A DNA stretch of 64,000 nt from NCBI RefSeq assembly GCF_038396675.1, contig NC_088929.1, positions 29,127,501 through 29,191,500 of the forward strand, given 5' to 3'. This DNA is from Hydra vulgaris (taxonomy: Eukaryota > Cnidaria > Hydrozoa > Anthoathecata > Hydridae). Below the pieces are notes generated by a model, which worked only from the letters and a program-made list of their open reading frames with translations, did not search any database and was not told the DNA's origin. The translations under genes and the position numbers were made by a program. Below are positions 50,756-52,125 of the stretch, piece after piece (position 1 is the stretch's first letter; each line of letters opens with the position of its first letter).

Positions 50756-52125
50756 CAGTACTGTGAATAAGTTTTAGACCACATGTATAATTAGACATTT
50801 ACAATTTTTTTCCTATGTAATTTTTTCAAAGCGAATTAAGTTTAACAATATATAAAAAAAGTTGAAAGAATATATTATTTTGAATAAATAAACGAAACTG
50901 ATGAGGAAACATGAGGGATTTGTTTGTTTATTTATTAAAACGATGTGTCATAACAACTACATCCAAAACAGGATATTCAAAGAATGCTGTTACAGAAATC
51001 GTTAAAAAATTTAGAGAAACTGGCTCCCTTGAAGATAGAAAAGTGGTAGACTAAGCTAACAAAAGATGACAATAAATATTTAAAAACCCTATCTTCAAGA
51101 AATATAAAAAAAAGCATCAACCGAGCTGGAAAATGACATTACCACAGCAACTGGGAAAAATGTCAGCTCTTCTTTTATTTGATGGCACCTACTTAAATCG
51201 GGATTAAGAGGGTGTGTTGCAATTCGAAAACCATTATTACGGTGTGGCAATAAAGAAAAACGACTTAAATATGCAAAACAACACAAAGATTGGGCCCAGG
51301 AAATGTTTAATTGGGTTCTGTACACCAATGAATCCAAATTCGAAATTTTTGGAACAAAAAGATGCCAATATGTTTGAAGAAAAATTGAAGAAGTCTATCA
51401 GCCCGAGTGTTTAAACCCTACTATTAAACACATAGGAGGCTCTTTACAAGTTTGGGGCTGTTTATCTTCATCTGGAGTAGATGATTTGATCAAAATAGGG
51501 GGCGACTCACCGGGGAACATTATGTGGATATCCTAAGGCACCATACTGTATCATCCAGAATGAGACTAATAGGTCATAATTTTATTCTGAAGCAGGATAA
51601 TGACCCAAAACATTGTTCCCGATGGACAAAAAATTATTTAAATGAAATGGCAGAGGAAGGAGTATTGGAATTGATGACCTGGCCTCCCCAGAGTCCAGTT
51701 TTGAATATAATTGAGCATATTTGGGATTACCTGGACAGAAAGAAGGTCGAACATGCTCCCTGAAATGATAAAGAATGTTTTGAAGTACTTCAAAGAGAAT
51801 GGCGCAACATACCCCAGGATTTTATAACTAATTTACAAAAATTTTACAAATAATAAATATTTGCCGGGGAATAGGTTCATACAAGTATGAACCTATTCCC
51901 CGGCAAATATCAGCTGGGATTGAGACAAAAGGAGGACATAGTAAATATTACGAGTTTTTTATAAAGTTTGACATTAAAAAGTTTGTAATTGTTCCATATT
52001 TTGTGTGAAATGCATGTGTTTTAATAAGTTTATAATTTAGAAATACAAACTTAAATATTTGAGAAAAATTCTCCAAGATTTTTTGAAAAAATGTAAGTGG
52101 TCTAAAACTTATTCACAGTACTGTA
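50756..52125 (+). mobile_element. Complete but dead Tc1/mariner element in a (TA)n tract
   Basis: 1,370 bp. The 27-bp TIRs are identical (first 12 bases CAGTACTGTGAA; 50756-50782 and 52099-52125), with TA on both sides inside a (TA)n microsatellite. The transposase (about 50911-51945, plus) is broken by many shifts. Recognisable parts are EIVKKFRETGSLEDRK, the first triad block as TNESKFEIFG (Asn where Asp is expected), LKQDNDPKH, and SPVLNIIEHIWDYL with the Glu. The C-terminus ETKGGHSKYY survives after an internal palindrome. Confidence 0.93.
51857..51910. repeat. Hairpin inside the Tc1 transposase: inverted duplication of coding sequence
   Basis: Arms 51857-51882 and 51885-51910 (26 nt) are perfect around AA. 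The right arm is the native frame (YEPIPRQI, followed by SAGIETKGGH). The left arm is its inverse and directly follows two TAA stops. Confidence 0.92.

Follow-up and report, generated by a model that had tools for sequence, protein, structure and literature searches.

A perfect palindrome near the 3' end of a Tc1-type element of Hydra vulgaris raises two questions, namely which of its arms is ancestral and by which mutation the other arm was made. It lies in a window of 64,000 nucleotides (C10:29127501-29191500), i.e., the whole stretch of DNA that was analyzed, and the genome searched consists of 15 contigs with 911,502,276 bases (911.5 Mb).

The palindrome and the element that carries it

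The features of the window are collected in Table 1. DNA folding of 51835-51920, which includes the palindrome, gave -28.3 kcal/mol, while 200 shuffles averaged -6.1 (z -10.6). A preliminary description had read the right arm as native transposase sequence and the left arm as its exact inverse, with a loop of 2 nt between them. The coordinates proved to be exact, and the alignment of further copies led to the same assignment.

Table 1. Positions of palindromes, of the parts of the insertion and of the host element within the window
Feature	Position	Strand	Remarks
Tc1-type element	50756..52123	+	broken transposase frame, 27-nt TIRs, (TA)n on either side; its 3' end region hosts the palindrome
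Palindrome	51857..51910		left arm 51857-51882, loop AA 51883-51884, right arm 51885-51910; 26 of 26 positions paired
Private 50-bp insertion	51835..51884	+	between native AATTT and GTATGAACC; from the 39-copy alignment, insert boundaries and genome-wide counts of filled and empty sites
AT-rich filler, 22 nt	51835..51856	+	contains both in-frame TAA stops, at 51851-51856
Inverse copy, 28 nt	51857..51884	+	left arm 51857-51882 and loop AA (inverse of the native TT preceding GTATG)
Right arm	51885..51910	+	native transposase sequence, template of the left arm; forward match to family majority 24/26
Palindrome, arms 29, loop 2	475..534		end of a second Tc1 family; left arm native, right arm inverse copy
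Palindrome, arms 25, loop 4	15088..15141		old repeat; only the left arm is present in L069
Palindrome, arms 21, loop 0	42834..42875		L133 and L135 have a native left arm, right arm partial
Palindrome, arms 33, loop 8	54817..54890		cannot be polarised

Both hallmarks of a Tc1 element were found, i.e., terminal inverted repeats and a DDE transposase. The TIRs are identical and are located at 50756-50782 and 52097-52123. A fragment of the element matched the DDE_3 profile with an E-value of 4.3e-6 and 27.1 bits, slightly below the curated cut-off of 28.6. The element is dead. Its transposase frame is interrupted also at other places, and, thus, the palindrome need not have silenced it. On either side it is embedded in (TA)n (50626-50755 and 52124-52223), where a TA target-site duplication is indistinguishable. 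Runs of TA/AT of at least 16 nt were present within the outer 60 nt of 30 of 51 TIR ends (from 37 of 40 copies) and at 4.7% of 2000 random window positions; the value for the TIR ends is biased, because the query of the copy search contained a TA run. Relatives of the family outside the genome were not found when the TIR pattern and the transposase fragment were compared with viral_contigs and the whole element with phages.

Polarity and origin of the added arm

The preliminary description had taken the left arm to be the added one and had named the alignment of other copies as the test. The copy search yielded 703 candidates, of which 40 were scored, including the window copy, and the other 39 were retrieved and aligned with it. 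The left arm was absent from all 39 of them, as it had been predicted. The usual reading at the site was AACTAAYTT directly followed by GTATGAATCTATTCC; exceptions were L040, which is deleted across the site, L039, which stops just past it, and a few copies that are slightly altered nearby. Exact matches were also counted genome-wide, with the same picture: the palindrome core was found once in forward and never in reverse orientation (control 0), and the exact empty site was found at 132 places (control 0). A conserved hairpin of the Tc1 family is refuted by these numbers. Across a set of 100 copies, 89 matched the empty-site expression, one had the palindrome, and ten matched neither. Eight of these ten lacked the left arm in the alignment, and the remaining two (L078 and L125) had been retrieved with the exact empty-site pattern. 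The palindrome is, therefore, private to one copy, and the alignment together with the counts of filled and empty sites gives an ancestral state without an inverted repeat, as required for a template switch.

The orientation of the arms was compared with the family majority. The right arm with a 15-nt flank matched in forward orientation at 36 of 41 positions, and the left arm matched only in reverse (24 of 26). In addition, two variants of the native arm are mirrored in the left arm, namely a C at 51892, which occurred in none of 37 informative copies, and an A at 51905, which occurred in eight of 36. Because the left arm mirrors the variants of the window copy itself, its template was local, i.e., it was located in the same copy and in no other. 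The new tract of 28 nt directly adjoins its template, of which it is the reverse complement, well within the tens of bases over which a short-range switch reaches.

The derived change is an insertion that consists of the filler followed by the inverse tract, and no native sequence was lost. The left arm had been described as inserted after two stop codons; however, the stops do not lie ahead of the insertion but within it, in the filler. A convincing source of the filler was not found within the element, where the local matches apart from the arm were AT-rich 9-11-mers only. The 6-mer TACAAA, which is the inverse of the native TTTGTA at the junction, occurs two times in the filler, in one case with the native T ahead of the filler as its first letter, and this repetition hints at several short switches at a single spot. 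The palindrome is a mutational scar, and there is no sign of a function.

Inverted duplications within and beyond the Tc1 family

The 100 copies were scanned for further inverted duplications (116 kb). In addition to the first 40 copies, they comprised 60 of the 132 empty-site places, the first listed on contigs C1-C8, some of which are fragments (146-1363 nt extracted). The pattern used for their selection is neutral toward changes in the rest of the element. L001-L010 coincide with L041-L050 and were counted once, and arms of simple repeats were filtered from all palindrome counts. Private inverted duplications with arms of 13 nt or more were present in 13 copies, 12 of them with loops of at most 20 nt; for the 12 events other than the window palindrome privacy was judged within the 100 copies. 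The first 40 copies (50.9 kb) contributed five palindromes (arms of 11 nt or more, loops of at most 20 nt), each in a different copy, and the 60 further copies contributed seven more at a minimum arm length of 13 nt as well as L078, which has a 35-nt loop. L081 (arms 14, loop 149) was omitted as likely due to chance, and L037 was counted once despite its second palindrome. Simulated copies with random substitutions and indels contained 0.05 such palindromes per 40 copies (arms at least 13, loops at most 20), so that about 0.1 would be expected for the 12 observed. At arms of at least 16 nt the simulation yielded none in 60 runs, and nine of the 12 small-loop events were observed at this length. 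The copies differed from the majority at 5,796 of 114,685 compared bases (1,112 singletons), which corresponds to one event per about 446 differences.

The events were not uniform. The native arm, as judged from arm and flank against the family majority, was the left one in seven cases and the right one in six, and the two sides were close in L028, L037 and L072. Native stems at the loop were found in L021 (5 bp), L112 (3 bp), L020 and L028 (2 bp each) and in the window copy (2 bp, with the loop inverted). L078 has a native stem of 4 bp by reading, which was scored as 0 at the perfect-arm edge, since a mismatch splits it; across this TCCC/GGGA stem more than 40 nt were copied inversely. L078 not counted, the native stem was 0 at the perfect-arm edge in L113, L124, L037, L072, L088, L122 and L130. 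As background, stems of at least 3 bp occur at 2.2% of loop positions in the whole family majority. Thus, a native stem of 2-5 bp seeds four of the 13 events (L020, L021, L078 and L112) and one in the second Tc1 family (palindrome 475). The loop is in native orientation in L020, L021 (one base changed), L078 (few changed), L112, L028 and palindrome 475. In L028 two changes, possibly both from C to T, made a quasi-palindrome perfect. Like L078 and L037, L021 is a multi-step event, in which a forward jump came together with a fold-back and a direct duplication. L072, L088, L122, L130 and L037 are complex or unseeded, and L037 contains several inverse copies. Deletions accompany L020 (79 nt) and L088 (277 nt). 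The family probably records both inter-strand switching and fold-back by polymerase theta.

Several template regions were reused, with different structures each time, i.e., (in family-majority positions) about 608-623 in L072 and L130, 893-938 in L088, L113 and L122, 1079-1136 in L050, L078 and L124, and 1227-1257 in L021, L028 and L037. Judged from these positions, the reused regions may be hot spots.

The preliminary description had also counted about 15 recurrences of the same shape in the window. After removal of 29 simple-repeat palindromes, 14 with loops of at most 20 nt were found, so that the number holds at arms of at least 14 nt; the mean of 100 local order-1 resamplings was 0.47. 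At arms of at least 20 nt there were six, with a mean of 0.01 in the same resamplings. The palindromes exceed the resampled means by far, and chance is thus excluded. However, they are not all of one class, because the palindrome 50294-50383 is shared: 18 of 40 scored copies of this repeat, itself included, had it in full or nearly full length, and 22 had only the first 186-220 bases. It is part of a foldback repeat at 50209-50468 with 127-nt arms that are 83% complementary, and the same two copy classes were seen, with the whole structure in 18 of 40. This repeat may be an inverted duplication that was subsequently spread by transposition. Other structures of the window are a long foldback at 26806-27369, with central arms of 116 nt that are 91% complementary and 1 nt apart and with further pairing outside, and a tandem array at 18084-18251 (four copies of a 42-bp unit).

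Some palindromes of the window could be polarised. The inverse arm of palindrome 475 has grown from a native 5-bp stem (GACAA AA TTGTC) and is followed by other sequence. All seven fetched relatives continue natively after the stem (one base is changed in each of L052 and L057), and the core occurs once in the genome. Of the 39 other scored copies, 38 end at or before query base 363, and the copy at C12:33609562 aligns through the right arm with 90%. For palindrome 15088 three relatives were aligned, of which L069 was informative; L070 aligned poorly and is maybe in opposite orientation, and L071 was gapped. Palindrome 42834 looks like a quasi-palindrome made perfect, as judged from two relatives (L134 is in opposite orientation and was not used). 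Other copies of the DNA around palindrome 54817 were not found among 13 scored candidates.

At arms of at least 16 nt, nine palindromes were present in the Tc1 copies (116 kb), seven in their flanks (61 kb), five at other loci (51 kb) and six in the window minus the element (63 kb), with null means of 0 to 0.27 (15 resamplings per set). A Tc1-specific cause was rejected on the basis of these similar densities in non-Tc1 DNA. Short-gap direct duplications at the same threshold numbered 6, 13, 3 and 10, respectively, i.e., inverted duplications outnumbered direct ones in the Tc1 copies and the other loci, and in the flanks and the window they reached about half the number of the direct ones. The sets are sequence around Tc1 hits and serve as a control, not as a random sample of the genome or an estimate for it, and the counts of direct duplications and non-Tc1 palindromes may include shared ones.

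Mechanism of the insertion and its meaning for Hydra

The best explanation is a local template-switch mutation, most likely between strands, in a single Tc1 copy after its insertion, to which we assign a probability of about 0.72. While the 3' part of the dead transposase gene was being synthesized, the nascent strand would have left its template between AATTT and GTATG and acquired the 22 nt of filler. It would next have copied 28 nt of downstream sequence backwards off the complementary strand, starting at ATAT and ending with the TT ahead of the junction, and synthesis would finally have resumed at GTATG. The strand used, the setting at a replication fork, the order of the steps and a date later than the insertion of the element are what we infer from the product. 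Template switching is known to make perfect hairpins (PMC8794818).

The loop bears on the choice of strand. The family has TT preceding GTATG, and the top-strand loop of the insert is AA; the loop is inverted. The inverse tract thus crosses the loop and reaches 2 nt beyond the junction, so that the entry point lies ahead of the exit point in either reading direction. In the four-point model this places point 2 ahead of point 1, which favors an inter-strand switch over a simple fold-back, because such events cannot be intra-strand (PMC7954356). A simple fold-back of the right-hand end would have kept the native loop, and is therefore disfavored. Taken alone, two nucleotides are weak strand evidence, and an untemplated addition of two bases ahead of a fold-back would give the same product. 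Stronger support for inter-strand switching than by the window palindrome is given by L113, the 4-nt loop of which (CAAT) is the exact inverse of native ATTG, and weaker support by L124, the loop of which is inverse at three of four positions. The preliminary description had proposed fork stalling with local strand switching, and local strand switching indeed fits best. However, a single switch and return with four points does not explain the whole change; the filler is left over, and, thus, more than one switch or untemplated bases are needed.

Repair of a break by polymerase theta is the most serious alternative to the template switch, and we regard it as rather unlikely for the window palindrome. 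A broken 3' end would have folded back on a few base pairs, copied itself and been joined to the other side with filler. Polymerase theta extends stem-loops off two 3' base pairs, and the resulting inserts hold inverted repeats (PMC11292364). The host encodes the polymerase domain: an uninterrupted frame of 490 aa at C12:57734506-57735867 (L140), which covers the polymerase domain only, had its best solved match with an E-value of 7.5e-122, compared to 2.5e-60 for the best Pol I. It was the sole match of two scored candidates for the family-A polymerase profile, and introns may hide others. The filler suits end joining, and so do the deletions in L020 and L088. Native microhomology as in theta-mediated end joining was found in L020, L021, L112, L078 (by reading) and palindrome 475. 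At the site of the window palindrome the family majority reads AC-TT-GT, which is a microhomology of 2 bp; the loop of the product is inverted, and the flank of the window copy is AT-TT-GT. Against polymerase theta speak the missing loss of native sequence, the inverted loop, which is the opposite of a simple fold-back of the right end, and the missing native stem at the perfect-arm edge in seven of the 12 other events (L078 not counted). It fits the events with native loops well, and the window palindrome less well.

Abortive gap repair leads to internal deletions with filler, and L020 and L088 look like its products. Inverted duplications could thus be by-products of Tc1 excision; this is quite improbable, because at arm lengths of 16 nt and more palindromes are equally dense outside the elements and palindrome 54817 lies in DNA of which other copies were not found. 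Fold-back read chimaeras produce palindromes of the same shape. An artefact of sequencing or assembly is nevertheless still less probable, because the filler and the scattered single-copy events would be unlike read chimaeras and because the assembly, if it is HydraT2T_AEP, was assembled from HiFi reads with Illumina polishing (PMC12220107: AEP haplotype, 912 Mb, 15 chromosomes, Nanopore gap filling). A functional hairpin or conserved part of the element, for which the similar location of palindrome 475 near a Tc1 3' end might be quoted, is the least credible of all, as the palindrome is private, the core of palindrome 475 is unique too, and the 13 events lie in several parts of the element with both arms native in turn.

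The insertion was compared with known systems. Short-range template switches in apes share a single local inverted tract, which often lengthens the sequence and gives a perfect inverted repeat; the sequence becomes longer in 65% of the gold-standard events, and the tracts have a median length of 12 nt (PMC7954356). In contrast, the tract in the window is 28 nt long, is accompanied by filler and came without loss of native sequence. Hairpin-creating switches likewise make a perfect stem from non-palindromic DNA in one event, but they were described in RNA genes and not in a dead transposon (PMC8794818). Stem-loop extension by polymerase theta shares the inverted repeat beside the junction, a short native stem and filler (PMC11292364); L020, L021, L078 and L112 fit it better than the window event with its inverted loop. 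Correction of quasi-palindromes (PMC7202029, PMC3820800) is similar to L028 and palindrome 42834, which look like imperfect stems that became perfect, whereas palindrome 51857 is a new stem and none was corrected.

The mutation class is already known, and the interesting part is its apparent frequency and the use of the family as an assay. The 13 long-arm events per 5,796 substitutions are far more than a rough estimate for apes, with differing thresholds. A pair of apes has roughly 35 million differences. With 2,750 events per pair (PMC7954356) the rate is about one per 13,000 differences in apes; the detection rules differ, and the comparison with the family is only suggestive. A literature search, conducted mostly outside the subscription journals, listed nothing of apparent relevance beyond PMC7954356 on this mutation class in Hydra or on transposon copies used in this way.

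It is a tentative proposal, somewhat short of an even chance, that inverse copying is unusually active in Hydra, by template switching as well as by fold-back of the polymerase theta type, that small-loop inverted duplications rival tandem ones in young transposon copies, and that roughly one in eight family copies has its own event. If true, transposon families would be a natural mutation-accumulation assay for template switching, in which the ancestral state, the seed stem and the orientation of the loop can be read for many events. Most hairpins cannot be polarised, but many can within a multicopy transposon family, and the orientation of the loop tells inter-strand switching and fold-back apart. 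If the rate holds genome-wide, much of the short structural variation in Hydra would come from inverse copying, and counts would become a test of how fork switching and repair by polymerase theta are balanced.
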